Positions 5,217 through 49,745 of a stretch of DNA of 64,000 bases are shown here, piece by piece. The stretch's first letter is position 1. The number at the start of each line of letters is the position of its first letter. The position numbers were made by a program, and so were the translations under genes. The notes beneath the pieces were generated by a model. The model was not told the DNA's origin. It made no database searches and saw only the letters and a program-made list of their open reading frames with translations. The DNA comes from Oncomelania hupensis (lineage: Eukaryota; Mollusca; Gastropoda; Littorinimorpha; Pomatiopsidae): assembly GCA_036898135.1 (NCBI GenBank), contig CM072512.1:9979428-10043427 (forward strand). The letters are read 5' to 3'.

Positions 5217-8200
5217 TCAATGTTCTTTCAACCACAAGGAAACGACGCCCTCGTCAGTTGCGGTCGTCATCGGCCCAGGGTCAAAGACAGTGATCTCGTG
5301 GGCTTTCCTGGAAGCAGTGCATCCTCCGTTGTCTTCCTCTCCCGTCGGATGTCCGACGCAGTCGACGTTGTCAGCTCCCAGAATGCATTCGCAGGGTCTC
5401 AGGGTCAGGTTGGCTTCTGCGGGACGGTGGAACCGCTCCCTCAAGGTCTGCAGATGCTCCTTCCAGGTCTGGGTGTGGACTTCATGTTCGACCAAAGTCG
5501 TAGAGCCTGGGACATCACTGAAGCTATGGGGAAATTCGCCCATAAGGTCCTTGAGCTCCAACTTTTGACCTTCCGTCAAGCTTGGTCCTAGCTTAACATC
5601 ATCGATGCCTTCTTTGCTGTGGAAGTCTCCCAGTTCCAACAGTTCTTCGCTGTCAAAGCTGTTGTCGATCTCAGCTGCTGTTGCTGCACGCACGGTCTCT
5701 GATGGCCTTTCCACGTACAGCTTAAGGAGGTTGGCGTGGTATATCTTGGAATGCTGGCCGACCTTCACCTTGTAGTCGTTGATTCCCACCACGGTCTCCA
5801 CTTCGTACGGGCCTTTCCACTGCATCAGCAACTTATTATGATCGGTAGGTAGCAGCACCAGCACTTTGTTGCCAGGTTTGAACTTCCTGTTCACAGCCCT
5901 ACGATCATAGTAGTGCTTTCCACAGTCCTGGGACTTCTTCAGGTTTTCTCTGGCTATCTCGAGAGTCTGCTCCAGCTTCTCCCGTAGCTCAAACACGTAC
6001 TGGTAGCTGTTCTTCACCTCTGGGGTGTCCACTTCTTTCGTCCACAGTTCTTTCAGGATGTGCATCGGCCCTCGGATGGTTCTTCCGTACAGCAGCTCGA
6101 ACGGAGAAAAGCCGGTGGACTCCTGCGGCACTTCTCTGTAGGCGAACAGTAAGGCGTTGATGTAACGATGCCATTGTCTGGGCTGCTCGCTGCACAGTTT
6201 CTTCAGGGTGGACTTCAACGTAGCATTGAACTTTTCGACAAGCCCGTTGCACATCGGATGGTAGGGTGTCGTAGTCAAATGCCGGATGCTCAGCAGTCTG
6301 TTGACCTCCTTCATACAGTCAGAGACGAACTGCGTCCCGAGGTCTGTCAGAATTTCTTCAGGCACTCCAAGTCTACTGAACATGTCCACCAGTGCCTCTG
6401 CTACAGTTTCAGTGTCAATCTTCTTCAGAGGCACTGCTTCTGGGTACCGAGTCGCATAGTCCACTAAAGTCAGTACCCATCGATGACCTTCTTCACTCGG
6501 AGGTCTTATTTCGCCGATTAAGTCTAAGGCCACCCTCTTGAAAGGTCGGTCGATCAAAGACATTCTCTGCATTGGCACTTTAGGGACCCTTCCTCGAGGT
6601 ATGGTCGTCTGGCAAATGTCACATGATCGACAGAAACGGCTGACGTCCGCATGAAGTCCTGGCCAGTAGAACACCGCCTGGATTCTGTCCGACGTCTTCT
6701 TGATGCCTAGGTGACCTCCCATAATTGAGTCATGCGCTACTTCCATCACCTGGCGCCTTAAGGGTAATGGTACCAGTACTTGACGTAGTGGTTTACCTCC
6801 GTTGACCCTCGGGTGCTGGAAGATTCTGTACAGGATCTTGGCCTTCACCTCAAAATAGACCGTGCCACTGCCCTTGGTCACGTGGTCTTGGCGGTTCCTA
6901 TACTTGTTTAAAGTACTATCAGCTTCCTGGAGCTGGATAAGCTTATCTCTGTCCACGATGGCAGCTTTAGAGTTGTCGGCGACCTTCAGTGGCGTAGACG
7001 TCTTGTCTCTCTTGGCCTGGGCCCTGGTAGTAACGGCACCGACGATCTCTGGTCGGCAGGGCTGAGCCGGAGTAACCACATTGTCCCGTAGCAGCTCTGT
7101 AAGGTCTCCATCGGGAAACGGCAATGGATCCTCCTCCACAACTTCGACGCGTTGGATTGAGGCAGGACTCCACTCTGGATCGGGGTCGTCGGGTCGTCTC
7201 GCGGAGTCGATATTCCCGATCATCAAATCATACAGCGGCTTCTTCAGGCAAACCGCTTCGACTTCGCCTATGTAGAAAGGGGTGTTGACATGAATCTTCG
7301 CAACTGGCGCTCTCACACATTTGCTGTCGGCCATAAGTGTCCATTTTGAATCGCCAGTGAACTGTTCTTTAGCGATTAGGTCTTCTCTGACGATGACCCT
7401 ACTGCAGCCAGAGTCTCTTAAAACAGTCACTTCATGATTTCCGACGCGTCCCTTGGAAACAGGCATGTTCTGTACGGTCACCGCTGCGCTGGCGACGACG
7501 GGGATGGATTTTCCGTTGGCAAGGAGAAGTTGGCCATCGGTCATGCACTCTTGCACGTCCGCAGGAGTAGCTGTGCGCTTGGTCTCACTCGGAAGAATGA
7601 CGCTCCCGCCGCACACTTGATGGTCAGATCTACTGGTTTGCCGTTGATTGGAGAACCGCCTCTGCCGGTTGCCCGCCGCTGAATTGTCCGTACTGCTCCG
7701 CTGTCCGCTACTTTTGTTTTGAGGACAGTTAGCCGCTCTGTGGTCTGTAGCGTTGCAGGTGAAACAGCCCCTTGAATGCCCTTCCCTGGGAGGAGGCGTG
7801 GAGTCTGTCTGTCTCTGGCTCGTCTGGCTTCCCTGGATCTGGTTCACATGGTTTCCAGTCTTCTGAAAATGTTTCGTCGCGCTGGGTGGCCCCAGGGTTT
7901 TCCCATGAGCGATGAGATATCTTTCAGCAGCCTCAGTCACATCTTTAAGCGTCTGCAGCTTTTGTTCTTCTAAGTGGGTCGCTAAGTCCTTGTGACAGGC
8001 ATTGAGAAATTGTTCCTTCACGATCAGGTCATGGAGACTGTCGTAAGACTTCGTTTCGCCTGATAACTCCACCCACTTGTGTAGATATGACGACAGGCGC
8101 TCCACAAACTGCTTTGGCGTCTCGTCTGACTTAGGCCGGCATTCACGGAAGCGTTTACGGTAGCCCTTCTCTGTAAAGTTGTAGCACTGCAACAGGGCCT

Positions 8201-8747
8201 CTTTCAAGACGTCGTAGTTTTTGGCGTCATCGTTCGACAGTCTGGTGTAAACTTCGAGAGCTTGCCCCGTCAGAAGTGCACTCAGTCGAATTGCCCAGTC
8301 TTGAGGTTGCCAGTTGGAGCTTTCGGCGAACCTTTCGAATCTCGCCAGATAACTGTCAATCTGGTCCTTCCCGTCGACGAAAGCTGGCAATTTTGGAGCC
8401 GTGTTGTCACTGATAACTTGTGGCGCATGCTGCTGTTGCTGGATGCGCGCCAACTCTAGTTGGAACTGCCGATCAGCTTCTCTTTCCTCACGCCTGCGCT
8501 CATCTTCTCTTTCTTGCCGCTGCTGTTCAATTTCCAGACGCTTCAGTTCAAATTCTCTTTCTTCACGGCGACGCTGCTCTTCTAATTCTCGTTCTTCACG
8601 GCGACGCTGCTCTTCTACTTCTAGACGCTTCTGTTCTAATTCTATTTCTCTTTCTTCACGCCATATTCTCTCTTGAGACTTGACGTACTCCGTCAGCTGT
8701 TTTCCTTTTAGATTTAGTTCAACTCCTTTCTGCCAGAAATCAGCCAT
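5217..8747 (-). CDS. Gag-protease-integrase polyprotein, RT core missing (copy 1)
   Basis: This is a single open frame of about 1176 aa from the Met at 8747, the start shared with copy 2; the frame is also open upstream to 9065. Order: a charged Glu/Arg coiled coil; capsid-like region; CX2CX4HX4C zinc knuckle (CFTCNATDHRAANC); protease motif LRDSGCS (Cys where families usually have Ala/Thr); H2C2 zinc site of integrase; integrase core with D, D and E; GPY/F-type WKGPY. After integrase comes the N-terminal edge of RT (FSDVPGSTTLVEHEVHTQ), joined directly near 5470 to a segment resembling the RT thumb (TWKEHLQTLRE). The fingers, palm and YxDD active site are absent, as is RNase H. No stop interrupts the frame. 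Integrase before RT resembles the Gmr1-type order (inference). Confidence 0.9.
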   Translation of the reverse strand: MADFWQKGVELNLKGKQLTEYVKSQERIWREEREIELEQKRLEVEEQRRREERELEEQRRREEREFELKRLEIEQQRQEREDERRREEREADRQFQLELARIQQQQHAPQVISDNTAPKLPAFVDGKDQIDSYLARFERFAESSNWQPQDWAIRLSALLTGQALEVYTRLSNDDAKNYDVLKEALLQCYNFTEKGYRKRFRECRPKSDETPKQFVERLSSYLHKWVELSGETKSYDSLHDLIVKEQFLNACHKDLATHLEEQKLQTLKDVTEAAERYLIAHGKTLGPPSATKHFQKTGNHVNQIQGSQTSQRQTDSTPPPREGHSRGCFTCNATDHRAANCPQNKSSGQRSSTDNSAAGNRQRRFSNQRQTSRSDHQVCGGSVILPSETKRTATPADVQECMTDGQLLLANGKSIPVVASAAVTVQNMPVSKGRVGNHEVTVLRDSGCSRVIVREDLIAKEQFTGDSKWTLMADSKCVRAPVAKIHVNTPFYIGEVEAVCLKKPLYDLMIGNIDSARRPDDPDPEWSPASIQRVEVVEEDPLPFPDGDLTELLRDNVVTPAQPCRPEIVGAVTTRAQAKRDKTSTPLKVADNSKAAIVDRDKLIQLQEADSTLNKYRNRQDHVTKGSGTVYFEVKAKILYRIFQHPRVNGGKPLRQVLVPLPLRRQVMEVAHDSIMGGHLGIKKTSDRIQAVFYWPGLHADVSRFCRSCDICQTTIPRGRVPKVPMQRMSLIDRPFKRVALDLIGEIRPPSEEGHRWVLTLVDYATRYPEAVPLKKIDTETVAEALVDMFSRLGVPEEILTDLGTQFVSDCMKEVNRLLSIRHLTTTPYHPMCNGLVEKFNATLKSTLKKLCSEQPRQWHRYINALLFAYREVPQESTGFSPFELLYGRTIRGPMHILKELWTKEVDTPEVKNSYQYVFELREKLEQTLEIARENLKKSQDCGKHYYDRRAVNRKFKPGNKVLVLLPTDHNKLLMQWKGPYEVETVVGINDYKVKVGQHSKIYHANLLKLYVERPSETVRAATAAEIDNSFDSEELLELGDFHSKEGIDDVKLGPSLTEGQKLELKDLMGEFPHSFSDVPGSTTLVEHEVHTQTWKEHLQTLRERFHRPAEANLTLRPCECILGADNVDCVGHPTGEEDNGGCTASRKAHEITVFDPGPMTTATDEGVVSLWLKEH

Positions 8748-8757
8748 CTTAATGCTT

Positions 8758-8821
8758 TTCTGGAAAGTTCTTTTTCTAGAAAGTTCTTGACTGTGCTGCA
8801 CTCTTCTAGACTGTTCTAGAA
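8758..8821 (-). promoter_or_regulatory. Cluster of heat-shock-element pentamers, copy 1 leader
   Basis: Alternating GAA and TTC triplets at 5-bp pitch (for example GAA at 8763, TTC at 8758 and 8768, TTC/GAA/TTC at 8774, 8779 and 8784, and TTC/GAA at 8814 and 8819) match the HSF consensus nGAAnnTTCnnGAAn. They lie just upstream of the gag Met. The equivalent array is longer in copy 2. Confidence 0.55.
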
Positions 8822-9230
8822 CAGCACGCTTTCTGCAGTAGCGCTGATGCTTGCCACTAGTCGCTTTCGCTGACGCAGGTCCCGCTGTCCTCGTCGTATG
8901 CGACGCTGCACCACGCTGGTGTTGATGTACACGCTCCTGTGCTGAAGTAGACGCGACGTCCGCTCGACGCTCGCTGTAACACTGGCGATGTAGCTCCGAG
9001 ACTGTCCCTCGACGTAGTCTTACGGTAGCCACGTAGTCCCGATCTGTTGTTCGCTCACGAAGCAACTCTTCAGCGACTACACGCCCTTGCAGTCAACCCG
9101 AACCTATCGGTGATGTAGTCCCAGTATGTTGGCCCCTCTCGACGCAACTCGTTGGCGGCTACCCTCGATGACTGCCTCTCGTAACGTTGACTCGCTTGTT
9201 GTAGCAGTTGAACCCTTGGCTATGGCGTGA

Positions 9231-9248
9231 ATCGCGGCTTGACCCCCA
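9231..9248 (-). other. Primer-binding site, copy 1 (candidate)
   Basis: On the minus strand, TGGGGGTCAAGCCGCGAT starts three bases after the 5' LTR. It is a slightly altered form of the copy 2 site (28252-28269), which resembles the proline-tRNA primer site. Confidence 0.55.
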
Positions 9249-9251
9249 AAA

Positions 9252-9891
9252 TGTTACACTCAGTTCGATGATGGTGTTTTTCGTTATCAGTATTTGATTC
9301 AGCCCCGATGCTGAAGTCCTGATAAGGTGTAACTCAGATTCGTTTATTCACACAGCCTGTCCAAACAGCATACAAATCACAAAGTCGACGTATGAAGTTT
9401 TCCACTTTTATTCAGCATACATCAACAACTGCATACAATTCTCAATTCAACTCAACAACTTTCACAGCAACTTTCCAAATCACTATCAACAACTTTACTA
9501 TCTCTCAACAGCAACTCGGCACACGATTAAATAACCTCTCTCTCTTCCGGAAGAATTTCGAACAATGTAGAAATGACGCACTGCCACCAATCGAATAAAA
9601 GATCGTCATCACTGACTTACGTCATTACACATTTCTTCTCCTTCCGGATCGTTCCTTCAAATTTCTACAATTATCCCGAATCTTCGATCGATAGTAAACA
9701 AGCCGATCCAGAAGATTCTACAACAATATCGACTAACGGAAATTATCAACGTTATACAAAGCCTTTCCTAACAACAATGCAAACTCAAATCAAAGGTAAA
9801 TAAACTCTATTATTGAATACTTTGCAAATCGAAACGATTAGATCTATCGTACACGCTTCCGACATACTTTCGTTCGCGTTTCAACGTAACA
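9252..9891 (-). repeat. 5' LTR of LTR element copy 1
   Basis: 640-bp partner of 4322-4961. The outer end ends in the CA/TG dinucleotide and is followed by the target duplicate GTCAG at 9892-9896. As the 5' LTR it should carry the promoter for the minus-strand transcript. Confidence 0.93.
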
Positions 9892-9896
9892 GTCAG

Positions 9897-10482
9897 CATA
9901 ACAGCGCTGATGAAGCAAATTGGATGACTTGTCAACGTCATGCCTGTATGCTTTACTATTTCTTGAGAAAAACTGTTTAGTTTCCTTCTAATCATGAAAT
10001 AAATATAATAGTGTTTGTTGTGGTTGTTGCTTATATATATTATTAACAAAAGGCCCAAACATATGTATTTTATTTTAATATGCTTATATAATGATATCAC
10101 ATAACTGCACAACTCTTCCAACACTTTTGAACAAGACATGCTTTTTCACCAATGTACCAAAAAAACAAACAAAACAATTAATACAACCTATCCTATAACC
10201 CAGAAGTCAGTCCATTCTTCAAAGTTGTCTTCCCACCTCTTTTTCTGTCTCCTTCTCTCATGTCCTTGCATTATTATCACCTACATGATCGAACAGGACA
10301 AGATGGGGAAAGAATCAGCAGCAGGCTCTACGATTATCTAGGCCTAATTATTTGCCAAAACGACTATGCTATACTTGCCTAATCATTTGCCAAAACGACT
10401 ATGCTGCCAGTATTAAAACAAATCGCAAGAAGCACATGAAATGTTTCCACCATAACAAGACTAACAGCACAATATTCCAAAC
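9897..10482. other. Intergenic, nothing recognised
   Basis: AT-rich flank of the LTR insertion with short open frames only and no recognisable gene or repeat. Confidence 0.4.
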
Positions 10483-10662
10483 CTGGGTGGTCAATGATTT
10501 CAGAAGGCCTTTGATCCTTTGCCTGGGTTTCTTCTTGGGCCCGTATGGTATCAGATTCTCTTCAATGTCCGCGAATGTCACACTCTTCTTCACCTTCCCC
10601 TCTGGTTTGGAAAAACTCGACTCATCAGTAGAAATCGCTTCAGCACTTTCTCCAACTGCCTC
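10483..10662 (-). CDS. Putative internal exon, unidentified gene
   Basis: On the minus strand a TTTTTCAAACAG acceptor is followed by exactly 60 open codons and then a CAG|GTTTGG donor, so the exon is symmetric (phase 0-0). The peptide has an acidic Ser/Glu-rich first half, then KVKKSVTFADIEENLIP and the basic stretch GPKKKPRQRIKGLL. KSVTF fits the RVxF docking motif for protein phosphatase 1, followed by acidic residues. Composition looks like a real regulatory tail and not random DNA. I do not recognise the protein and found no partner exon in the window. The overlapping + strand frame is probably a shadow. Confidence 0.45.
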
Positions 10663-10972
10663 CTGTTTGAAAAAGGAAATTTAAAAAGGAAATAAAGGTA
10701 TCAAAACTCCTAATTAATGAAAAAGATTAATCATTATTTTAATTTAAAAGGTTCAACTAACTGAATTTCTTCACAAGGCCTAGCTCACACTTAAGATGCC
10801 TTTCTGGACCATGATAATGGAGACGCAGACTGGGATGAATGGGAAAGTAGAAGGGAAGAACACTACTAGCATGATCCAACAGGTTTTGACCATAAGACTA
10901 GTTCCAGAAAGTACTGCTGAGATTTTCTTTAGATCTTCAGATTGTTTTAATCAAAACAGTTTGGGATGAGAT

Positions 10973-10973
<1 letters not shown>

Positions 10974-11043
<70 letters not shown>
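10974..11043. repeat. (GA)n microsatellite
   Basis: About 34 uninterrupted GA units. A similar array is at 51918-51983. Confidence 0.95.
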
Positions 11044-11047
<4 letters not shown>

Positions 11048-11616: not shown

Positions 11617-11808
11617 AAACACTATGTTTGGCTGAATTTTATTGGTCACATTGTACTTCCTATTTGTAATTTGATCCAATAAGAAATAATATAACATATA
11701 TGTCCGTTTGTTGACAGTGTGGCTTCTGCAAGCTAATGGGGATGGAAATATTATTCTTAATGTTAGTTCTTCACACTTCCCTATGATGCAGAAAAGTGAC
11801 GGAACACC
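11617..11808 (+). promoter_or_regulatory. Conserved 5' region of palmitoyltransferase gene 1
   Basis: This block aligns with 55025-55233 upstream of gene copy 2, including ATCCAATAAGAAATAAT (a CCAAT box), ATATATGTCCGTTTGTTGACAG and CTATGATGCA. It probably holds promoter and 5' UTR. The string TTTGTTGACAG could also be a splice acceptor for a 5' UTR-containing exon, which would put the true promoter further upstream. Confidence 0.45.
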
Positions 11809-11935: not shown

Positions 11936-14900
11936 GTAAGATGCTACGGAACGCCGAATTATCACTAGGTAGCAACATAGATACATCTGTATCTATGTGA
12001 CTAGGGTCGGGGTGCTGATAGCCAGAATTTTAAACTTTAATACAACCCGCTTCCCCCCCCCTCCCCCTCCTTCCCGTTGACTACTGCCTTCATCATAATA
12101 AAGATACTCCCTATACTTCCCTTCAAAATCTTACTTTCTCCACTGTGATCAGTACGGATACTGATCGTTTGTGAATCTTAGGCACATGGCATGATGTGTG
12201 ATCATGCGACATAAGCAGACATAACTGAACATATAAAAGGAGACTGAAGACCAAATAAAATAAAATAATCCCGTAGCATGTTTTTGTGATTTTTTTTTTT
12301 AAAGAAATAAAATAAAATAATCCCGTAGCATGGTTTTGTGATTTTTTTTTTTTTTAAGAAAAAAAAACCTCTAGTTCCTCACTTTTGTCTATGTGATAAA
12401 TCATAAAGCAAACTTGATCGGCCAGTAAAAGATTGTACTTTGTTTATGATAGATAGCTACTGACATAAATCCATATTTTTCTAGTATCTGTTGACAGGTA
12501 ACCACTACTGGATTGACCTCGATGGGAAGAAGCATGAGAGGACTAGAAGATTAATAAGAAAACATTTAAAAAGTATAACTGCACTACTGATTTAAATATA
12601 TAGCAGGTGCATTTGCTTTATTGCATTGGTAATTGATTGATTCTGTTTTGTTTCAGTGTTTTGTTTATAGTTTTGTTGTTTATAAATTTACTATATAAGC
12701 CCCACTCCGTTGGCCACCAGGACGGAGGTGTTAAGTATGCTACTGATGGACAATATAGCAAGATCCGCACGAGAAACAACATCGTCATAGGAACCTGGAA
12801 CGTCAGGACCCTAACTGCGGAAGGAAAATTAGAAGAACTGGCCCACGAGCTGGACCACTATCGATGGAACGTTCTAGGTATCAGCGAACTGCGCTGGAAA
12901 GGCCTAGGTGAAACAACGACTGACAAAGGCCACAAGCTCTATTTCAGCGGTAGAGATGACAGGCACGAACACGGCGTTGGATTCTTGGTCCACAAGAACA
13001 TTCTAGCCACTGTCATGGGTTGCCGCCCAGTCTCCAGTAGACTCATTACCATCCGTCTGAGAGCAACCCCTTTCAACATTACCATCATCCAGGCCTATGC
13101 CCCAACATCAGACTATGAAGACAGCGAAGTGGAGGATTTTTATGAAAATATACAGGCGGTCCTTGACCAAGTGCCGAAGAAGGACATAGTCATAGTGCAA
13201 GGCGACTGGAATGCCAAGGTTGGCCAAGATGCGCACCGCAACTGGGGAGACACATGCGGACCCCACTGCAACAACGAGACAAATGACAGGGGTCTGAGGC
13301 TATTGGAGTTTGCCAGATACAACAATCTGGTACTGGCAAACACGCTTGGTCACCACAAAAAATCCAGACGATGGACATGGCACAGTCCCGGCGGGGAACA
13401 TCACAACCAGATCGACTACATCATGGTCAAGAAACGCTTCAGATCAAGCATCAACATTGGCAGGACACGCACTTTTCCAGGAGCAGACATTGGAAGTGAC
13501 CACGATCTCGTGATGATGTCTTTCCGGCTCCATTTGAAGAGAGTAAATACAGCAAAGTGCACTAGGCTGAAGTTCGACCTGGACAAACTGCAAGACCCGG
13601 AGGTGGCAAAAATATTTCAGGCCACAATTGGAGGGAAATTTGCACCACTGCTTATTTTGGGGGCAGGCGAAGTAGATGTCAACACCATGACCAATACCTT
13701 CAACTCAGCTGTAACAGATGCCGCCACTGAGATCCTTGGCAAGCACCGACCAAAGAAGAAGCCGTGGATCACACCTGAACTTTTGGATCTGTGTGATAAA
13801 CGAAGAGAGTTAAAAAAGAAAAAGAACACCTCACAGGGAGCTGATGTCTACCGAAAAATCAACAATGACATCCGAAAAGGCATGCGCACAGCAAAGGAGA
13901 ACTGGATAGAAGATCAATGCCAGGAAATAGAGAACAATCTGAACAAGAACAACAGCAAGAAGGCCTACCAGACTGTGAAGCGGCTGACAAGTGTTAAACA
14001 GCCCAAAGTCTCCACTATCCAAAGCAAGTCTGGCATTTGCCTTACAGAAGAACAAGAAGTCTTGGACAGATGGACAGAGTACTGCTCTGACCTTTACAAC
14101 CATACACCAAATGGAGACCCATCAGTTCTAGCATGTCCCGAGAGCAGAGAAGAAGAAGAAATCCTCCCAATTCTCCGGGAAGAAGTTGAGGCAGCAGTGC
14201 AATCGCTGAAGAAAGGGAAGTCAGCGGGAGTGGACAACATACCAGCGGAACTGCTACAAGCAGGAGGAGAAGCGATGACTGATGCTCTCACCACTATCTG
14301 TAACAAGATCTGGCAGAATGGGGAATGGCCTACACCATGGACCCAGTCGCTTGTCATCACTCTTCCTAAAAAAGGTAACCTTCAGGAGTGTGAAAATTAC
14401 CGCACCATCAGCCTCATCAGCCATCCCAGCAAGGTCCTCCTGAAAATAATACTCAACAGGTTGAAACCACAAGCTGAACAAATCATAGCTGAAGAACAAG
14501 CAGGATTCATGGCAGGGCGAAGTACCACTGAACAGATTTTCAACCTCAGAATAATCTGTGAGAAATACCTACAGCACCAACAACATCTATATCATGTGTT
14601 CATAGACTTCAAGAAGGCATTTGACCGAGTCTGGCATGCAGCTCTATGGGCAACCATGAAAGTGTACAACATCAGCCCTAAAATCATAGAAGTCATCAAA
14701 AGCCTGTATGACAAGGCTACCAGTGCAGTCCTCCATAACAGCGTCATCGGGAACTGGTTCAGAACAACAATCGGTGTGCGTCAAGGATGCCTACTCTCTC
14801 CAACACTCTTCAACATCTTCCTAGAGCGCATCATGTCAGATGCTCTTGCAGATCACGAAGGCACAGTCAGCATAGGGGGCAGAGCAATCTCCAATCTTCG

Positions 14901-17900
14901 TTTTGCGGATGATATTGATGGATTGGCTGGAGAGGAACAAGAACTTGAACAGCTTGTACAGAGGCTTGACACCACCTCCAGAGCTTATGGAATGGAAATA
15001 AGTGCAGAGAAGACCAAAATGATGACCAACAACACCAATGGCATCAACACGGACATCAAAGTACAAGGCCAATCCCTCAACACAGTGCACAGCTTCAAAT
15101 ATTTAGGAGCCATTGTGTCAGACAATGGGTCTCGACAGGAAGTCCTCTCCAGGATCGCACAAACAACTGCTGCCCTGACAAGGTTGAAGCCCATTTGGAA
15201 AGACAGAACCATCAGTCTACATTCCAAAGTAAGACTGCTGCGATCTCTGGTCATCTCCATCTTCCTATATGCTTGCGAAGCATGGACCCTCACAGCAGAT
15301 CTCCAACGAAGAATACAAAGCATGGAGATGAGGTGCTACAGAAGACTTCTGTGCATTTCCTATACCCAACACATCACCAACGTTGAAGTCCGACAGACCA
15401 TCACACAAGCCATTGGACAACACGATGACCTGCTCACAGTGGTGAAGAAACGGAAACTCCGATGGTATGGCCACGTCACCAGATCATCAGGCCTTGCAAA
15501 GACCATTCTGCAAGGCACAGTGCAAGGAGGTAGAAGAAGGGGGAGACCGAAAAAGAGGTGGGAGGACAACATTCGAGAATGGACTGGTTTGACACTGAGC
15601 GAAGCCATGAGGGCTGCTGAGGACAGAGAAAGATGGAGTATGCTGGTTAAGCGATCATCTGTGGTGCCCCTACGACCTTCGGGTTATGGGACAGGATAGG
15701 ATAGGATAGGAAGCCCCACTCACTGAGGAGACAGCTAATATTGCGCACGCATGCCTGATAAATAAAATCCTTTTTTTTTTCTTTTTAAGTCGCTGACCAC
15801 CATTTTTAAGTATTAATAATGCCTCCTTTGATATATGTACTTACCCACCAACTCTAAGGGGCGTCGGACAGCGCAGTGGTTGGAGCCCTCGCTACTGTGT
15901 CGCAAGTTAAGCACCGTCCAATGCGGTTAGCACTTGGATGGGTGACCGCAAAACGTGAAGCAACAAATAACAACGCCCCCAGTTGACTCAACTGTGACTG
16001 AGTACCTACTCTCTTAAGGGTGGGGAAGGTAAAGCAGCGAGGGAGAGAGATGGGCATCACCCTCATTATGCTGGCCCAAGATAAGTCAAGTGTGATCTCC
16101 AACATCACGCTCCCCTACTGCCACAAGGCTATGGGACCACCTTTACCTTTACCTTTTTACCAACTGTAACAAAAATCCAGAACCTGATCCACCACCATCT
16201 CTCACGTTTTATTTTCAGGCTGGCACCAACAAACGGAACTTCACAAGGCCTGTTTGGTGGGAAATGTGGAGGTTGTGAAACTCTTGATTCAATCTGGAGC
16301 TGATCCCAATGCCAGGAACACGTTTGATGAGACTCCGCTGCACTATGCCTGCAAGCGAGGTCTTCCACCCCTGGTCCATTACTTGCTGACGCACGGCAGT
16401 GATGCCACGCTGGTGGACAAAATGGGCAAAGGAGTGTTGCACCACGCGGCGGAGGCTGGCTGTGTGTAAGATTCTTTTACCTATTTATTTTTATTTATTA
16501 TTTCTGTCTTAGTGTATTTAATTCTTTTAGAAGCCTGAATGGGTGTGTGTGCAAGATTTAATGAATTACTGATAATAAGATTTGATGAATTACTATTAAT
16601 GGGCTCTATGCACAAGTCGGCGCGCGCAAACGGCGAGGTCACGTGGTGCGGGAATAACAAAGCGATCATGGCTTCTTTTAGCTCGCTCGCGTGTACTGCA
16701 ATGCTGCTTAAAAATTTTAACTTTACCGACATTTTGGGATATTGTGATGTTTTGAACATAGCACATTCGTGCAATAATGATTACAGACAAATTATTATCA
16801 AAGGACAGGCTTTTTTTAAAGAGCGATTTGTCACTGACATTCAATTTAGAGTTAATCAATATTTCATCTTTCAGTGGAAATCAATGAAAGGAAATGTTCT
16901 TTTCTTTGCATAAAGGTTTTACGTCAGAATTAGAGCATCACAGCACAGTACAGCACAGTACTTCACCATTTTCAAACTCGAACACGCTGTGTTATTCCCG
17001 CAGCACATGATCGTCACGCCTTTGTGCATAGAGCCCATTAAGGTGGAGCAGTAATGTAGTGGTTAGCGCAGATGACACCTCCCACAAACCTTTTCTCACT
17101 AGAAAAGGCAGAGTATCATGATAATAGCATTAAAAATATATCTATAGTGAATTGTTCAACTTCAAGACCACTTTCTAAATTAATATGTGGGTCGTTCTCT
17201 GGAAACATGCTGAAAGTGTGACATAGATGTAAAAAAAAAAACTTTTGAAGAGAAAGTTGTTACATGCACAATATTTAAGTATATATTTGTCCTTTCTCCC
17301 TTTATAATTTTTTTTTAAATTGTTCTTTTAGTTACCGAGTACCAACACCTTAAAGGTATAGGTAGAAGCATATGGACGGATGCAACATAGTAACCAAAGG
17401 AACTGCTAAAAGGTGTCCAAAACTCCTAGTTATGTAAATTTTAAAATCATTTTATAAAAAAGTATCTATTTCAAGAAGATGTTGCACTGTAACAAATGAA
17501 TAATTGCTGTAGATGCATTGGTAAAGATGCATATAAAATTTAATATTTACTTTGGACTGACGCAACATACTATAGTAACCAAACTTTTAAACTAAAGCTA
17601 AAAACAGTCAAGATATTCAGATGCAATGAAATAGAAATGAAAATCCAATTGCAGGTGAAAGCAGTTACTATTTTTAATCAAGAAAAGAATTAAAAGAGTG
17701 AAAGTTTGAAATTAAAAAACAAATTCAGAAATTGTGTAACCTTCGCTGTCGCTACTCCGTTGCGAGCATCCCATAATTTTCAAAACATTCAGATTTCTCA
17801 ATCTTCTATGCGACATCAATACAAAACAACATTATTTGCCTATAAACATAATTGTAACAAATAAACGATGAATTCAAATAACATAAAAAACCAAATGCCA

Positions 17901-20900
17901 CGCAAAATCTTTTTTTACATTTTCCGAAGGACGATCGCAACTAAGTAACTATCGGCGGTGGCTACTTCATTACGTCCGACCTACTTTTTAAAACTAACCC
18001 TCTCCCGACAATCACAAATAATAAATATTCACATCAATAATATTCTTAAAACTGGAAACATTATAATAATTGTAAAAATAAAGATTAAAGTTTGATTCTT
18101 TTACTTTGGTAATCAGAATATTGACGGACGCAACTTCGTGTGGATTCAAAGCAACGAAAACACTTTTTCAAATTTCGACGATACCGCGCATCAATACAGC
18201 ATCTAATTATAACAAAAATTAATCCGCTACTTCCGTGACTATTTTTATACCTAAAATATAGTTCCATTTACTTTTAAACCTAAGTTATTATATTTTAAAG
18301 GTGGACGGACGCAACTCAAGATATTAGTAACGAAGGATACCAGCAATCAAAGAACACCAAATTCTATTCATAATTGGGGTCTATCAAGATTACTTATCTT
18401 TTAATAACAAAAAAATAGTGCAGTGCTAAAAATAGAAAGCACTCATTCCCGATTATTTTGAACAACTTTAGTGAGAGGAGGCTGTCGGTGTCTGTGATAT
18501 GTGAAGTAACGAAGCGTTGCGTCCGTCCAACTAGTTTTGGTGACGCAATAGATTATCAAGTGTCACCTCAGCATGACGCTGAAGCGTGTATCGGCAAACC
18601 TTAATAGGCATTTTCAAAGTTTGTACCACTTTCAGCCATAAAACTGTGCGAGATAAACAAATAATCTGATAAAAAAATTCTGACCGTCAGCATGTCACAA
18701 AATGGCGCTGTGGAATTTCATAAATTTTAGCAGAAAAACACAAATTAAAGAGAATCACTTTAGTTTTAAATGGAAATCCTTTTAAATAATATAACATTAA
18801 TATATACTCAACACAATAACAACAAAACAGACACAGATAATTGGTTTCTTATATATTTTATTTGTTCTGTGGGTTCGGGCAAATAGAATAGACCCAACGT
18901 TTCCCGGCGTGTCGTAAGAGGCGACTAACAGGGGTGATGTTAGCACGGCATCACTGGGCGAAAGTCTTCTACACAGAAGTCACCGGCCAGGGCGGAGGAA
19001 CCTCACGTTACTACAGGTTCAACGACCACGTGCTCAGGGCCAAGGCGAGCCACACTGTATTCGTGGATTTCGGCTGTGGCCAACAGCCTGGAGAGGATTG
19101 GGCCCTGCCAGGTCTTTTTTTTGCCCAAGACACACTACATGATGACACAATCCACTAATTCCATACCGGATCGGTCGTCGCCCGGGCCGTCACCCGGCAC
19201 AAGGACCGCGCCTTCCGTTGGCCACCAGGACGGAGGTGTTAAGTATGCTACTGATGGACAATATAGCAAGATCCGCACGAGAAACAACATCGTCATAGGA
19301 ACCTGGAACGTCAGGACCCTAACTGCGGAAGGAAAATTAGAAGAACTGGCCCACGAGCTGGACCACTATCGATGGAACGTTCTAGGTATCAGCGAACTAC
19401 GCTGGAAAGGCCTAGGTGAAACAACGACTGACAAAGGCCACAAGCTCTATTTCAGCGGTAGAGATGACAGGCACGAACACGGCGTTGGATTCTTGGTCCA
19501 CAAGAACATTCTAGCCACTGTCATGGGTTGCCGCCCAGTCTCCAGTAGACTCATTACCATCCGTCTGAGAGCAACCCCTTTCAACATTACCATCATCCAG
19601 GCCTATGCCCCAACATCAGACTATGAAGACAGCGAAGTGGAGGATTTTTATGAAAATATACAGGCGGTCCTTGACCAAGTGCCGAAGAAGGACATAGTCA
19701 TAGTGCAAGGCGACTGGAATGCCAAGGTTGGCCAAGATGCGCACCGCAACTGGGGAGACACATGCGGACCCCACTGCAACAACGAGACAAATGACAGGGG
19801 TCTGAGGCTATTGGAGTTTGCCAGATACAACAATCTGGTACTGGCAAACACGCTTGGTCTCCACAAAAAATCCAGACGATGGACATGGCACAGTCCCGGC
19901 GGGGAACATCACAACCAGATCGACTACATCATGGTCAAGAAACGCTTCAGATCAAGCATCAACATTGGCAGGACACGCACTTTTCCAGGAGCAGACATTG
20001 GAAGTGACCACGATCTCGTGATGATGTCTTTCCGGCTCCATTTGAAGAGAGTAAATACAGCAAAGTGCACTAGGCTGAAGTTCGACCTGGACAAACTGCA
20101 AGACCCGGAGGTGGCAAAAATATTTCAGGCCACAATTGGAGGGAAATTTGCACCACTGCTTATTTTGGGGGCAGGCGAAGTAGATGTCAACACCATGACC
20201 AATACCTTCAACTCAGCTGTAACAGATGCCGCCACTGAGATCCTTGGCAAGCACCGACCAAAGAAGAAGCCGTGGATCACACCTGAACTTTTGGATCTGT
20301 GTGATAAACGAAGAGAGTTAAAAAAGAAAAAGAACACCTCACAGGGAGCTGATGTCTACCGAAAAATCAACAATGACATCCGAAAAGGCATGCGCACAGC
20401 AAAGGAGAACTGGATAGAAGATCAATGCCAGGAAATAGAGAACAATCTGAACAAGAACAACAGCAAGAAGGCCTACCAGACTGTGAAGCGGCTGACAAGT
20501 GTTAAACAGCCCAAAGTCTCCACTATCCAAAGCAAGTCTGGCATTTGCCTTACAGAAGAACAAGAAGTCTTGGACAGATGGACAGAGTACTGCTCTGACC
20601 TTTACAACCATACACCAAATGGAGACCCATCAGTTCTAGCATGTCCCGAGAGCAGAGAAGAAGAAGAAATCCTCCCAATTCTCCGGGAAGAAGTTGAGGC
20701 AGCAGTGCAATCGCTGAAGAAAGGGAAGTCAGCGGGAGTGGACAACATACCAGCGGAACTGCTACAAGCAGGAGGAGAAGCGATGACTGATGCTCTCACC
20801 ACTATCTGTAACAAGATCTGGCAGAGTGGGGAATGGCCTACACCATGGACCCAGTCGCTTGTCATCACTCTTCCTAAAAAAGGTAACCTTCAGGAGTGTG

Positions 20901-23900
20901 AAAATTACCGCACCATCAGCCTCATCAGCCATCCCAGCAAGGTCCTCCTGAAAATAATACTCAACAGGTTGAAACCACAAGCTGAACAAATCATAGCTGA
21001 AGAACAAGCAGGATTCATGGCAGGGCGAAGTACCACTGAACAGATTTTCAACCTCAGAATAATCTGTGAGAAATACCTACAGCACCAACAACATCTATAT
21101 CATGTGTTCATAGACTTCAAGAAGGCATTTGACCGAGTCTGGCATGCAGCTCTATGGGCAACCATGAAAGTGTACAACATCAGCCCTAAAATCATAGAAG
21201 TCATCAAAAGCCTGTATGACAAGGCTACCAGTGCAGTCCTCCATAACAGCGTCATCGGGAACTGGTTCAGAACAACAATCGGTGTGCGTCAAGGATGCCT
21301 ACTCTCTCCAACACTCTTCAACATCTTCCTAGAGCGCATCATGTCAGATGCTCTTGCAGATCACGAAGGCACAGTCAGCATAGGGGGCAGAGCAATCTCC
21401 AATCTTCGTTTTGCGGATGATATTGATGGATTGGCTGGAGAGGAACAAGAACTTGAACAGCTTGTACAGAGGCTTGACACCACCTCCAGAGCTTATGGAA
21501 TGGAAATAAGTGCAGAGAAGACCAAAATGATGACCAACAACACCAATGGCATCAACACGGACATCAAAGTACAAGGCCAATCCCTCAACACAGTGCACAG
21601 CTTCAAATATTTAGGAGCCATTGTGTCAGACAATGGGTCTCGACAGGAAGTCCTCTCCAGGATCGCACAAACAACTGCTGCCCTGACAAGGTTGAAGCCC
21701 ATTTGGAAAGACAGAACCATCAGTCTACATTCCAAAGTAAGACTGCTGCGATCTCTGGTCATCTCCATCTTCCTATATGCTTGCGAAGCATGGACCCTCA
21801 CAGCAGATCTCCAACGAAGAATACAAAGCATGGAGATGAGGTGTTACAGAAGACTTCTGTGCATTTCCTATACCCAACACATCACCAACGTTGAAGTCCG
21901 ACAGACCATCACACAAGCCATTGGACAACACGATGACCTGCTCACAGTGGTGAAGAAACGGAAACTCCGATGGTATGGCCACGTCACCAGATCATCAGGC
22001 CTTGCAAAGACCATTCTGCAAGGCACAGTGCAAGGAGGTAGAAGAAGGGGGAGACCGAAAAAGAGGTGGGAGGACAACATTCGAGAATGGACTGGTTTGA
22101 CACTGAGCGAAGCCATGAGGGCTGCTGAGGACAGAGAAAGATGGAGTATGCTGGTTAAGCGATCATCTGTGGTGCCCCTACGACCTTCGGGTTATGGGAC
22201 AGGATAGGATAGGATAGGATAGTTCTCAAAGTGAAGTACCCCCCAAGGGCAGGTTTTTGGAGACTAACTCATATAAATTAAGAATGAACGCATGGAGCAC
22301 TAAATACTCAGCAGAAGTTAAATGTATATGTAATGCAAGTGTATCAGTACATCACTTTCTCTGTTTGAATGCTCAGTTTTAAAAGACATATTTAACGTAA
22401 ATGGACATAGCATAACTGAATATGGACATTCTGTAGACATGGCTCTGTATCATCCAAATGTTACAGACGTTGTGAAAGTTATTGCTAAACCTCCTGTTGG
22501 TAGACTTTTATAGACTGTTTGTTTTGAAATTATGTTTTGAAATAGTTTAAATGTTTTAAAAGCAACATTTTCAATGTCTAATAATAATATCACTTAAATG
22601 TTTGAACAGACATTAAATAAAAGATTGATTGATTGAACCCTGTCCACCCGGTTGTGAATGAGTACCTGGATCTGTTTAGAATCGAAGGAAGGTAAAGCAG
22701 CGAGGTGGAGGGGAGATAGGCATCGCCCTCATTAAGCTGGTCTAGAGAAAAGGGAGGTCCTAAGCACTTTTCTCCCCAACGATTGACAGGTTACGGGGAG
22801 ACCTTTACCTAACAATAAAGTCAAAGAGGGAGTGGAGTAGGGATACATGAAGGCTCCTGTTGATGACTAGCACAGCTGCTGATATTTCATTTCACTTTAC
22901 ATTGTTAAGCACAGAAGAGCCTAATGTGTGTATCTAACAGTAACCAGTACATATTTTGACAGCTACTGTCAGTACAAACTCTCCCAAAAATCCAAAGTAA
23001 TAAATACTTGTGACCATTTCTGTCTTTATCCAGACAGTTGCTGGCCATGCTGGAAGCGCTTTATCCCGACATGTCTTTCACGTGCCAAGACTGCAACCTG
23101 CAGACGCCACTCCACCTCGCCACCAAGGCTGGCCAGTTAGAGGCTTTCAAGTTCCTCTTGAGAAAAGGGGTGAGAGAATGCTGATTGACTTGGTCTTCTA
23201 TGTTTACCATTGTCCTCTGTGACTGTAAGTGTAATGGGTTTGGTTCAATGCTTATAATGTTGAGGTTTCCCTTAGACTGGAGATTGTCAAGCGGAAAGGT
23301 GCCTTATTGGATCCATCCATTCATCCATCCATCCCAGTGAGGCAGACATCTTTGTATTTATTTGCTTTGTTTGGATTGAAACTTGGAATATGCAGACATG
23401 CCTACCTGTATGGAATTTCCGTATTTTCCGGAAATTTGAAAAACTCGGCAAGCGCTACGGAAAATACGGATACTTGTTTCACGGTCCGGAAATACATAAA
23501 AACAACATTTGGAAAAAATCTCGAACTCGTTGGCCTGTGGTAATGCACCACGTGACCTTTTTCCGAAGACGCCCGAACCCGGTTTAATGCCGTAATGCGC
23601 AGTCGCAGTAGCAACACGTGGCATCAAAGTTTCCTGTAGAAGCACCGAAGTTTGCCGAACCAGTTTTTGCACAGTCGCAGTAAAGATCGGTGCTCATGAG
23701 ACAGAATTTAAAACATGTCGTCCAAACGAATGGCTAAGCAAAGTGATTGTGAATCTGAATCTTTAAAAAAAACGCGCAAGGGGCAGACATTTCTTGCCTA
23801 GTATTCTGAAAAGTGTCCTTTCGTTATTCGCCGCACCACTGACTCAAAAGTACAATTTGTGCCAACCAGTTTGGTATTTCCGCCGGTGATATGAACGATA

Positions 23901-26900: not shown

Positions 26901-29900
26901 CAAAACGCAATTTCTTCAACCATAATGCACAGATTTGTTTAAAATATTAAATTTCTAAAAGCACAATAGTTTTATTTGCCTTCCGTGTATTTTTGATCAA
27001 TGCAATAACTACAATCCCTACACTAGAACGCATTGACTGCAGTGCCTTGAAGCGGAAAATTTTCCCGTGGCCATGTTTTTCATCTGGGTCAAGTTAGCAG
27101 AACGTTTGGGTGTTCCCCGAAAAAGCGTCACGAACTTTCCGCCTCTCAACCAATCAGAATGAATCTTATACCGATGGAAAGCTTATTTCCGTGGCTGTGA
27201 CGTCATGGGTGTTTCGTATTAATATTTTATTTTTTTCAAGGCAAAATATTAAGTTAAAACAGAGGCATCACTTTCTTCTTTAAATATTTTCGTTACCCCG
27301 AAACGAATTATAATGTATCATATATGCAAAGAAAGGTCTTTTTTTGCTCTTTTTAATGGTATAAATTATGACCCGGAAGTATTAGCGGCGGAAGATCCGT
27401 GACCCGAAAATCGGTGAACCCCGCAGAACAACTTCAATGGTTTGTGTGCTAACGGAAGTACAGAAACTTTGGACTCGATCCGTTCAATTCTTAGTAAGTA
27501 CTCTTCGATAGTTCGTTTTTTAAAATTAAATTGATATTTGTATGAATATTTGCTTGTTTTGTTTTGTAAGTATCCTTTGTATTTGGCGAAAGATTTGTCA
27601 CAGAATGATCGTGTTACGTTGAAACGCGTACGAAAGTATGTCGGAAGCGTGTACGATAGATCTAATCGTTTCGATTTGCAAAGTATTCAATAATAGAGTT
27701 TATTTACCTTTGATTTGAGTTTGCATTGTTGTTAGGAGAGGCTTTGTATAACGTTGATGATTTGCGTTAGTCGATATTGATGTAGAATATTCTGGATCTG
27801 CGTGTTTACTCTCGATAGAAATTTCCCGATGCATGTCGAGGCAAGAGGACGTTCGGGAAGGAGAAATAATAATGTATGACGTAAGTCAGTGATGACGATC
27901 TTTAGTTCGATTGGTGGCAGTACGTCATTTCTACGGTATTCGAAATCTTTCCGGAAAAGAGAGAGGTTATTTAATCGTGTGCCGAGATTGTTGTAGAAAT
28001 AGTAAAGTTGTTGATAGTGATTTGGAAAGTTGCTGTGAAAGTTGTTGAGTTGAATTGAGAATTGTATGCAGTTGTTGATGTGTGCTGAATAAAAGTGGAA
28101 AACTTCATACGTCGACTTTGTGACTTGTATGCTGTTTGGACGGGCTGTGTGAATAAACGAATCTGAGTTACACCTTATCAGGACTTCAGCATCGGGGCTG
28201 AATCAAATACTGATAAAGAAAAACACCATCATCAAACAGAGTGTAACATTTTGGGGGCCAAGCCGGGATTCACGCCATAGCCAAGGGTTCAACTGCTACA
28301 ACAAGCGAGTCAACGTTACGAGAGGCAGTCATCGAGGGTAGCCGCCAACGAGTTGCGTCGAGAGGGGCCAACATACTGGGACTACATCCGAGGGATTCGG
28401 GTTGACTGCAAGGGCGTGTAGTCGCTGAAGAGTTGCTTCGTGAGCGAACAACAGTCGGGACTACGTGGCTGCCGTAAGACTACGTCGAGGAACAGTCTCG
28501 GAGCTACATCGCCAGTGTTACAGAGAGCGACGAGCGGACGTCGCGTCTACTTCAGCACAGGAGCGTATACATCAACACCAGCGTGGTGCAGCGTCGCATA
28601 CGACGAGGACAGCGGGGCCTGCGTCAGCGAAAGCGACTAGTGACAAGCATCAGCGCTACTGCAGAAAGCGTGCTGTTCTAGAACAGTCTAGAAAGGTACA
28701 GCACAGTCAAGAACTTTCCAGAAAAAGAACTCTACAGTCAAGAACTTTCTAGAAGAAGAACCTTCCAGAAAAGAACTTTCTTTAAAAGAACTTTCCAGAA
28801 GCATCAAGATGGCTGACTTCTGGCAGAAAGGGGTTGAACTGAATCTAAAAGGCAAGCAGCTGACGGAGTACGTCAAGTCTCAGGAGAGAATACGAGAAAG
28901 AGAATTGGAAGAGAAGCGTCTAGAAAAAGAAATAGAACTAGAACAGAAGCGTCTAGAAATTGAACAGCAGCGGCAAGAAAAAGACAGAGAATTCGAGCTG
29001 AAGCGTCTTGAGTTCCAGCTAGAAATGGCGCGTATCCAGCAACAGCAGAATGCGCCACAAGTTATCAGTGACAACACGGCTCCAAAATTGCCAGCTTTCG
29101 TCGACGGGAAGGACCAGATCGACAGCTATCTGGCCAGATTCGAAAGGTTCGCCGAAAGCTCCAATTGGCAACCTCGAGACTGGGCGATTCGACTAAGTGC
29201 ACTTCTGACGGGGCAAGCTCTCGAAGTTTACACCAGACTGTCGAACGATGACGCCAAAAACTACGACGTCTTGAAAGAGGCCCTGTTGCAGTGCTACAAC
29301 TTTACAGAGAAGGGCTACCGTAAACGCTTCCGTGAATGCCGGCCTAAGTCAGACGAGACGCCAAAGCAGTTTGTGGAGCGCCTGTCGTCATATCTACACA
29401 AGTGGGTGGAGTTATCAGGCGAAACGAAGTCTTACGACAGTCTCCATGACCTGATCGTGAAGGAACAATTTCTCAATGCCTGTCACAAGGACCTAGCGAC
29501 CCACTTAGAAGAACAAAAGCTGCAGACGCTTAAAGATGTGACTGAGGCTGCTGAAAGATATCTCATCGCTCATGGGAAGACCCTGGGGCCACCCAGCGCG
29601 ACGAAACATTTTCAGAAGACTGGAAACCATGTGAACCAGATCCAGGGGAGCCAGACGAACCAGAGACAGACGGACTCCACGCCTCCTCCCAGGGAAGGGC
29701 ATTCAAGAGGCTGTTTCACTTGCAACGCTACAGACCACAGAGCGGCTAACTGTCCTCAAAACAAAAGTAGCGGACAGCGGAGCAGTACGGACAATGCAGC
29801 GGCGGGCAACCGACAGAGACGTTTCTCCAATCTACGGCAAACCAGTAGATCTGACCATCAAGTGTGCGGCGGGAGCGTCATTCTTCCGAGTGAGACCGAG

Positions 29901-32900
29901 CGCGCAGCTACTCCCGCGGACGTGCAAGAGTGCATAACCGATGGCCAACTTCTCCTTGCCAACGGGAAATCCATCCCCGTCGTCGCCAGCGCAGCTGTGA
30001 CCGTACAGAACATGCCTGTTTCCAAGGGACGCGTCGGAAATCATGAAGTGACTGTTTTAAGAGACTCTGGCTGCAGTGGGGTCATCGTCAGAGAAGACCT
30101 AATCGCTAAAGAACAGTTCACTGGCGATTCAAAATGGACACTTATGGCCGACAGCAAATGTGTGAAAGCGCCAGTTGCAAAAATTCATGTCAACACCCCT
30201 TTCTACATAGGCGAAGTCGAAGCGGTTTGCCTGAAGAAGCCGCTGTATGATTTGATGATCGGGAACATCGACGGCGCGAGACGACCCGACGACCCCGATC
30301 CAGAATGGAGTCCTGCCTCAACCCAACACGTCGAAGTTGTGGAGGAGGATCCATTGCCGTTTCCCGATGGAGACCTTACAGAGCTGCTACGGGACAATGT
30401 GGTTACTCCGGCTCAGCCCTGCCGACCAGAGATCGTCGGTGCTGTTACTACCAGGGCCCAGGCCAAGAGAGACAAGACGTCTACGCCACTGAAGGTCGCC
30501 GACAACTCTAAAGCTGCCATCGTGGACAGAGATAAGCTGATCCAGCTCCAGGAAGCTGATAGTACTTTAAACAAGTACAGGAACCGCCAAGACCACGTGA
30601 CCAAAGGCAGTGGTACGGTCTATTTTGAGGTGAAGGCCAAGATCCTGTATCGAATCTTCCAGCACCCGAGGGTCAACGGAGGGAAACCACTACGTCAAGT
30701 CTTGGTACCGTTACCCCTAAGGCGCCAGGTGATGGAAGTAGCGCATGACTCAATCATGGGAGGTCACCTAGGCATCAAGAAGACGTCAGACAAAATACAG
30801 GCGGTGTTCTACTGGCCAGGGCTTCATGCGGACGTCAGCCGTTTCTGCCGATCATGTGACATTTGCCAGAAGACCATACCTCGAGGAAGGGTCCCGAAAG
30901 TACCTATGCAGAGGATGCCTTTGATCGACCGACCTTTCAAGAGGGTGGCCTTAGACTTAATCGGCGAAATAAGACCTCCGAGTGAAGAAGGTCATCGGTG
31001 GGTACTGACTTTAGTGGACTATGCGACTCGGTACCCAGAAGCAGTGCCTCTGAAGAAGATTGACACTGAAACTGTAGCAGAGGCACTGGTGGACATGTTC
31101 AGTAGACTTGGAGTGCCTGAAGAAATTCTGACAGACCTCGGGACGCAGTTCGTCTCTGACTGCATGAAGGAGGTCAACAGACTGCTGAGCATCCGGCATT
31201 TGACTACGACACCCTACCATCCGATGTGCAACGGGCTCGTCGAAAAGTTCAATGCTACGCTGAAGTCCACCTTGAAGAAACTGTGCAGCGAGCAGCCCAG
31301 ACAATGGCATCGCTACATTAACGCCTTACTATTCGCCTACAGAGAAGTACCGCAGGAGTCCACCGGCTTCTCTCCGTTCGAGCTGCTGTACGGAAGAACC
31401 ATCCGAGGGCCGATGCACATCTTAAAAGAACTGTGGACGAAAGAAGTAGACACCCCAGAGGTGAAGAACAGTTACCAGTACGTGTTTGAGCTACGGGAGA
31501 AGCTGGAGCAGACTCTCGAGATAGCCAGAGAAAACCTGAAGAAATCCCAGGACTGTGGAAAGCACTACTATGACCGTAGGGCTGTGAACAGGAAGTTTAA
31601 ACCTGGCAACAAAGTGCTGGTGCTGCTACCTACCGATCATAATAAGTTGCTGATGCAGTGGAAAGGCCCGTACGAAGTGGAGACCGTGGTGGGGATCAAC
31701 GACTACAAGGTGAAGGTCGGCCAGCATTCCAAAATATACCACGCCAACCTCCTTAAGCTGTACGTGGAGAGGCCGCCAGAGACTGTACATGCAGCAACAG
31801 CAGCTGTGACCGACGACAGCTTTGACAGCGAAGAACTGTTGGAACTGGGAGACTTCCATAGCAAAGACGGCATCGATGACGTTAAGCTAGGACCAGGCTT
31901 GACGGAAGGTCAAAAGTTGGAGCTCAAGGACCTTATGGGCGAATTTCCCCATAGCTTCAGTGATGTCCCAGGCTCTACGACTTTGGTCGAACATGAAGTC
32001 CACACCCAGACCTGGAAGGAGCATCTGCAGACCTTGAGGGAGCTGTTCCACCGTCCCGCAGAAGCCAACCTGACCGTGAGACCCAGCAAATGCATCCTGG
32101 GAGCTGACAACGTCGACTGCGTCGGACATCCGATGGAAGAAGGAGACAACGGAGGACGCACTGATTCCAGGGAAGCCCACGTGATCATCGTCTTTGACCC
32201 TGGGCCGATGACGACCGCAACTGACGAGGGCGTCGTTTCCTTGCGAACGAAAGAACATTGACTGTGTGGACGAACTAAGAATATTGGTAATGACAGACTT
32301 GAAAATGAAAAACATTGATCGTGAAGGTAAACTGTGAACATTGACATTATCCAGGCAGATTTGAAGATGAAAACCATTGACTCTGTGTAGATAAGCTGAG
32401 CGCAATTACAGTATTCAGAAAGTCTTAAATTAGTTTCAATTGAGGACTTTGTTTGTGCATTACGTTTCAACGTTGTTGAAAGAAATTAGGTAAATTTCTT
32501 CTTGAGTGGGGGGTTATGTTACGTTGAAACGCGTACGAAAGTATGTCGGAAGCGTGTACGATAGATCTAATCGTTTCGATTTGCAAAGTATTCAATAATA
32601 GAGTTTATTTACCTTTGATTTGAGTTTGCATTGTTGTTAGGAGAGGCTTTGTATAACGTTGATGATTTGCGTTAGTCGATATTGATGTAGAATATTCTGG
32701 ATCTGCGTGTTTACTCTCGATAGAAATTTCCCGATGCATGTCGAGGCAAGAGGACGTTCGGGAAGGAGAAATAATAATGTATGACGTAAGTCAGTGATGA
32801 CGATCTTTAGTTCGATTGGTGGCAGTACGTCATTTCTACGGTATTCGAAATCTTTCCGGAAAAGAGAGAGGTTATTTAATCGTGTGCCGAGATTGTTGTA

Positions 32901-49740: not shown

Positions 49741-49745
49741 TATCT

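Follow-up and report, generated by a model that had tools for sequence, protein, structure and literature searches.

The 64,000-nucleotide stretch of Oncomelania hupensis DNA analysed here (GenBank assembly GCA_036898135.1, contig CM072512.1, positions 9,979,428 to 10,043,427, forward strand; below, the window) contains two long terminal repeat (LTR) retrotransposons, A and B. In both, Gag, protease (PR) and integrase (IN) are encoded in one open frame, and the palm of the reverse transcriptase (RT) and the RNase H are absent. The elements very probably belong to a high-copy non-autonomous subfamily of Gmr1-like Ty3/gypsy retrotransposons, which would borrow RT from full-length relatives in the same genome and still make its own Gag-PR-IN. 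An original prediction, made from the letters of the window, had described this deletion and proposed that the deleted form is mobile; its observation is confirmed and its interpretation is largely right.

Domains kept and lost in elements A and B

Both elements have the features of LTR retrotransposons, namely paired LTRs, target duplications, a putative primer-site region and a polypurine tract. The two LTRs are identical over 640 of 640 bases in A and 637 of 637 in B, and the elements lie between exact 5-bp duplications as predicted, GTCAG for A (4317-4321 and 9892-9896) and GATCG for B (27607-27611 and 33154-33158).

Pfam identifies a SCAN domain, a CCHC zinc knuckle, H2C2 and rve in the frames of A and B; RVT_1 and RNase H were not found in these frames. 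The integrase triad of B is spaced D-x59-D-x35-E, and the protease has a D-S-G motif. The RT palm and RNase H of a full-length relative were also used as tblastn queries. They detected one 26-amino-acid finger piece in A (E 1e-5) and otherwise nothing better than E 0.1 in A and B, and the same queries gave E values of 7e-99 and 7e-141 in a full-length control. Each element has, as predicted, a single frame with gag, protease and a DD35E integrase. An RT in another frame or on the opposite strand of A or B, which would have contradicted the prediction, was rejected because tblastn found none. Neither element has the RT and RNase H of its own that would make it autonomous.

The full-length relative P0017 (1524 amino acids) has the Pfam order SCAN, zinc knuckle, H2C2, rve (741-838), RVT_1 (1150-1307) and RNase H (1398-1501). 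In the alignment with P0017 the RT edge (LVEHE) of the window frame abuts the thumb (VHT...TWKEHL), 163 amino acids of fingers and palm being gone. The closest named proteins are from Littorina saxatilis, with about 87% identity across the part from IN to the RT thumb.

In the window copies too the RT remnants lie after the integrase. An order with IN before RT is given as a mark of the Gmr1 clade of Ty3/gypsy (PMC6238403). By domain order the elements look like Gmr1-like Ty3/gypsy retrotransposons, with the pol order PR-IN-RT-RNase H. The SCAN-type Gag presumably fits this tie to Gmr1.

Abundance and recent insertion of the palm-less form

Copies were sorted into three classes. Class I has RT and RNase H sequence, class II has the palm together with a tail of the window type, and class III, which includes A and B, is palm-less.

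A 42-base sequence across the palm-deletion junction occurs 3433 times (1723 + 1710) in the 1.45-Gb genome with at most 3 mismatches. The same pattern read backwards occurs 0 times, so the count is far beyond chance. A conserved 42-base palm marker occurs 2566 times; it covers classes I and II, and the comparison with the junction is rough since constraint is not the same on both markers. In the first 75.6 Mb of C1, 100 exact junction copies stand, among the matches listed, against 19 exact palm copies. By this rough marker count the deleted form is the commoner one, and the converse, that most family members are full length, is not borne out by it.

The analysis of insertions covered five whole class III copies: A and B, and L058-L060, which are the first three exact junction matches on C1. 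All five have 5-bp target duplications. Their LTR pairs differ by 0 of 640, 0 of 637, 1 of 618, 0 of 635 (plus two gaps) and 2 of 616 bases, so that every pair is at least 99.3% alike. These copies were inserted recently, which bears out the predicted mobility of the deleted form itself. With many copies, one common deletion and, in the five copies examined, recent insertions, the palm-less elements have properties expected of a non-autonomous family mobilised in trans.

Relatives that keep the palm: full-length and half-reduced copies

The genome was searched with the 159-amino-acid RT core of P0017. This gave 15323 first-look candidates, from which 150 hits were scored; all 150 cover 159 of 159 residues and have no internal stop. 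From the first 30 of these hits, 20 palm-bearing copies were taken whole; being top-scoring, they lean towards young and intact elements. Seventeen are class I and three are class II (L049, L051 and L052). An automatic test found a 5-bp duplication in 16 of the 20, and in 9 the LTR pair is identical across 620-637 aligned bases. The LTRs of classes I and III are 80-92% identical where they align whole, and in some copies they align in pieces. An intact partner with shared ends is therefore present in the same genome. Another route to full-length copies, an upstream 24-mer followed by a non-C base, was rejected: it gave seven matches, all seven palm-less.

Element B matches the 17 class I copies at about 94-97% from mid-gag to the junction, where the alignment jumps by 489 bp with a 7-bp overlap. 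The predicted full-length relative with RT exactly at this junction thus exists. The 7-bp repeat AGTCCAC stands at both ends of the deleted segment in the 7 palm-bearing copies compared, and 489 bp is 163 codons, so the reading frame is kept. Splicing of an intron was considered as an origin of the gap and rejected, since shifting its ends by eye across the 7-bp repeat gives no GT...AG pair; a template jump is therefore preferred.

The RNase H was lost by a separate rearrangement downstream of the thumb, distinct from the palm junction. In classes II and III a second, out-of-order copy of a finger piece stands between the thumb remnant and the 3' untranslated region (3'UTR), and the RNase H region is gone. 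A single loss of RT and RNase H is rejected, as L049, L051 and L052 keep the palm and carry the same tail. The original prediction had placed both losses at one junction, near 5470 in A and near 32008 in B; this stands for the palm and fails for the RNase H.

The class II copies also suggest the order of events. On the thumb side of the junction L051 is like class III over 32 bases at which class I differs, so the RNase H was likely lost first and the palm second; L049 resembles class I on this side. L051 has the target duplication ATGGT and LTRs that are 98.6% alike, and the half-reduced class II form therefore moved as well.

Proposed mechanism and alternative explanations

In the mechanism that we favour, a source form would first have lost RNase H by rearrangement. 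The RT fingers and palm would have been lost next, with the 489 bp deleted between two copies of AGTCCAC; a template jump during reverse transcription is the simplest explanation. One frame would still give class III its Gag, protease and integrase. The class III RNA has LTRs, a primer-site region and a polypurine tract in common with class I RNA, and the two RNAs would be packaged together. The class III RNA would be copied by class I RT, and insertion would use integrase from either source. The supply of RT in trans by class I is the natural inference; co-packaging, and an action of class III Gag and integrase on their own RNA, are inferred likewise. The domain content follows from the Gmr1-type order, a point absent from the original prediction. 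We hypothesise that the subfamily could arise here because RT and RNase H come last in pol, so that an element losing them can keep Gag, protease and integrase intact. Where RT precedes IN, as is common in gypsy elements, such a loss would be more likely to damage the integrase.

The most serious alternative is that class III Gag, protease and integrase are useless to the element, a pure parasite whose frame is open through youth and recombination with class I. We consider this unlikely, though it deserves real weight. The entire frame is open in 4 of the 5 whole class III copies. In simulations with substitutions only and no recombination (2000 runs per rate), 2-4% of frames stay open at 0.025-0.03 substitutions per lineage, which is the divergence of the tail; 12.7% stay open at 0.015 and 0.05% at 0.05. 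Among L001-L007, class III copies chosen only by the junction change, a 1494-base IN segment is open in 4 of 7.

The kept domains also differ from the remnants in constraint. The ratio of nonsynonymous to synonymous polymorphism (pN/pS) was taken over 4 of the 5 whole class III copies and 13 of the 17 whole class I copies. In class III it is 0.19 for Gag, 0.25 for PR plus linker, 0.04 for IN, 0.33 for linker plus RT edge and 0.70 for the tail. The class I values are 0.18, 0.18, 0.03 and 0.20 for the same parts and 0.07 for the matching thumb. Segregating variants, each counted once, were taken from the copies with open IN (8 of 12 in class III, 18 of 27 in class I). Synonymous and nonsynonymous IN variants number 88:20 in class III and 102:21 in class I (p 0.86), and thumb variants 2:16 and 13:3 (p 7e-5). 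The integrase is thus as constrained in class III as in class I, and the thumb remnant is released in class III.

Part of this constraint could come from exchange with class I, as the parasite explanation would have it. Of 88 synonymous IN variants that segregate in class III, 29 are private and at least 59 occur in class I as well. Divergence is uneven along the element: the mean synonymous distance in IN is 0.131, against 0.061 in the tail, over the 15 pairs that can be formed from the six class III copies whose IN is open, out of nine copies and 36 pairs. In a tree of IN, built from 37 of 39 segments (L002 and L009 being too short), the class III label needs 4 changes; shuffled labels need 7.5 on average and none of 500 shuffles is as low, so class III is clustered. 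The shared variants and uneven divergence suggest that classes III and I recombine, and hence are packaged together, most simply with template switching in mixed particles. The original prediction had proposed dN/dS in gag and integrase as a check; recombination with class I weakens the argument for constraint that can be drawn from the pN/pS values.

Several further observations weigh against the proposed mechanism. The constraint on class III Gag and IN may come partly from class I and not be enforced within class III. At the RT edge, another part with no use once the palm is gone, release is not significant (variants 23:22 in class III and 26:20 in class I, p 0.68), a result that also favours the parasite explanation. 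Private IN variants number 29:17 in class III and 43:18 in class I (p 0.53), which makes class III only moderately constrained. The frame of L060 is broken, as is the IN segment in 3 of the 7 copies L001-L007. Between B and L058 the distance changes along the element like a patchwork, being 0.011 for the 3'UTR but 0.113 for the RT edge. In the IN tree a single class III clade is neither recovered nor rejected (AU p 0.19). The window junction appears in none of 30 library proteins, judged by Pfam domains and, for P0023-P0026, by alignment.

The private variants speak on the other side. They are less affected by exchange, and in class III they are more synonymous in IN (29:17) than in the thumb (9:22, p 0.005). 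Some constraint acting within class III itself therefore remains likely.

A variant of the proposed mechanism, which we put forward as quite speculative, is a division of labour in place of parasitism. Class I Gag and Pol form one uninterrupted frame and so lack the frameshift by which Gag is usually made in excess. Class III would add Gag, protease and integrase without RT and so set the ratio of Gag to Gag-Pol in mixed particles, and both forms would persist. If so, the IN-before-RT order could let such helpers arise repeatedly, as P0062 and the L. saxatilis proteins described below hint.

It is improbable that one or a few class III loci recently made nearly all copies, in which case open frames would say nothing about function. 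Such a burst would account for the identical or nearly identical LTR pairs of all five whole copies. Between these copies the tail differs by about 5% and the 3'UTR and LTR by 10-11%, far more than the two LTRs within each copy; several diverged sources were therefore active, not one master. A dominant-negative role, in which class III Gag-PR-IN would mainly limit class I and be kept for its benefit to the host, is very improbable: an interfering product could consist of Gag and integrase kept without RT, but thousands of dispersed copies with recent target duplications (in the five examined) resemble self-spread and not one kept locus. Least credible of all is an unrelated RT donor, such as the LINE-like elements nearby or some other LTR family. 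Two nearly identical non-LTR elements with RT do lie in the window, but full LTRs, a primer-site region, a polypurine tract and 5-bp duplications call for the LTR pathway, and class III has LTRs and variants in common with class I.

Other features of the window

The features of A and B are listed in Table 1. Among 5 full-length copies compared, the primer-site variant of A is found in 3 and that of B in 2. The Gag start (about 28809-29070 in B, 8350-8747 in A) is a charged, repeat-like stretch rich in E and R, of unequal length in A and B. Between the stop codon and the 3' LTR of A (5066-5193) are two imperfect 64-bp tandem units, 77% alike.

Table 1. Positions in the window of elements A and B and their parts
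Feature	Position	Strand	Remark
Element A, palm-less (class III) LTR retrotransposon	4322..9891	-	5570 bp
Element B, palm-less (class III) LTR retrotransposon	27612..33153	+	5542 bp
5' LTR of A	9252..9891	-	640 bp
3' LTR of A	4322..4961	-	same sequence as 5' LTR of A
5' LTR of B	27612..28248	+	637 bp
3' LTR of B	32517..33153	+	same sequence as 5' LTR of B
Putative primer-binding-site region of B	28249..28268	+	labelled from its position just inside the 5' LTR
Polypurine-tract region of B	32497..32516	+	precedes the 3' LTR
Gag-PR-IN open frame of A	5217..8747	-	1176 amino acids counted from first Met
Gag-PR-IN open frame of B	28809..32261	+	1150 amino acids counted from first Met
SCAN domain in Gag of A	7902..8162	-	Pfam PF02023, E 1.5e-12
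SCAN domain in Gag of B	29316..29576	+	Pfam PF02023, E 3.5e-12
Integrase region of A, H2C2 zinc finger and rve core	5721..6968	-	
Integrase region of B, D-x59-D-x35-E	30510..31757	+	
IN-RT linker and N-terminal RT edge of B	31758..31996	+	
Palm-deletion junction of A	5475..5481	-	7-bp repeat AGTCCAC
Palm-deletion junction of B	31997..32003	+	7-bp repeat AGTCCAC
RT-thumb remnant of B	31997..32144	+	84-87% to full-length copies
Displaced RT-finger piece of A	5253..5331	-	after thumb remnant; 76% to L038 4959-5037
Displaced RT-finger piece of B	32183..32225	+	out of usual order; 86% to L038 4995-5037

The two non-LTR elements, which encode an endonuclease and RT (12637-15699 and 18944-22207), have the same orientation and are 99.87% identical over 3006 bp. 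Both end in GGATA repeats. Their 3' flanks are unlike, so they are probably two recent insertions and not one duplication. Other 3'-end fragments of this family lie at 2538-3058, 49739-50430, 54637-54840, 56772-57212 and 57752-58012, 81-96% identical to the long copies or to each other.

Comparison with known systems

The window elements share with the Gmr1-like clade the order of IN before RT, as in P0017, and the SCAN-type Gag; they differ from it in being without the RT palm and RNase H.

Related proteins in the library lack RT in other ways. P0062 (1019 amino acids) has a SCAN-type Gag and an integrase followed by the last residues of RNase H, without RT. Its full-length relatives among the matches listed, including P0056, are 88.6-91.6% identical to it. 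The 160 member sequences of its cluster are not to be equated with 160 RT-less copies, as the length rule of the clustering is not shown. The L. saxatilis proteins P0024-P0026 have a common in-frame RT gap of 240 amino acids and keep SCAN-type Gag, integrase and RNase H; since the three come from gene annotation, an intron placed by the gene model could account for the gap. In P0062 and P0024-P0026, as in the window elements, the RT core is missing in frame, but the breakpoints are different. P0061 (94 member sequences), P0053 and P0045 have a Gmr1-like Gag and integrase in a frame that stops within the RT fingers or palm, which may reflect truncation or a contig end, or may make them further RT-less forms. 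Forms that keep integrase without RT are perhaps not confined to one species.

Ginger DNA transposons carry a gypsy-like integrase without being LTR retrotransposons (PMC2836005). Their ends are terminal inverted repeats and their movement is as DNA, whereas A and B have LTRs and need reverse transcription. A and B are not Ginger elements, because their ends are direct LTRs and not terminal inverted repeats.

Non-autonomous LTR families of plants, namely barley RLG_WHAM, RLG_Sabrina_A and RLC_Giselle and the non-autonomous form of wheat Fatima, keep gag or gag and protease (PMC5738225, PMC3129301). In the available portions of these papers integrase is not described for them, and in the Fatima pair most of the interior is dissimilar.

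Functionally, the nearest parallel is the 1Δ1 form of the mouse intracisternal A particle (IAP), an endogenous retrovirus. It has an internal deletion and a fused open frame, and it is non-autonomous and needs proteins in trans; its product is reported to help partly in cis, and it is the source of most new insertions (PMC6466679, PMC7411935). Its deletion, given as 1.9 kb, cuts part of gag and pol. Unlike IAP 1Δ1, class III belongs to Ty3/gypsy, keeps Gag, protease and integrase, and loses the RT fingers and palm and the RNase H. As to a similar action in cis, the constraint on IN in class III equals that in class I, a comparison confounded by recombination with class I.

The original prediction called the retention of gag, protease and integrase the reverse of most non-autonomous LTR families. 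This is fair, with the qualification that IAP 1Δ1 and the plant families are precedents. In a limited search of one open-access library, judged by titles and the first lines of abstracts, no LTR family described as keeping Gag, protease and integrase but lacking the RT core was recognised. The palm-less elements are a natural high-copy case of open Gag, protease and integrase without an RT core, with full-length, half-reduced and reduced forms in one genome. In such a system one can examine which proteins of a retrotransposon have to work on its own RNA and which it can borrow. A simple testable rule is suggested too, that the order of the pol domains decides which functions an element can drop while keeping the rest.

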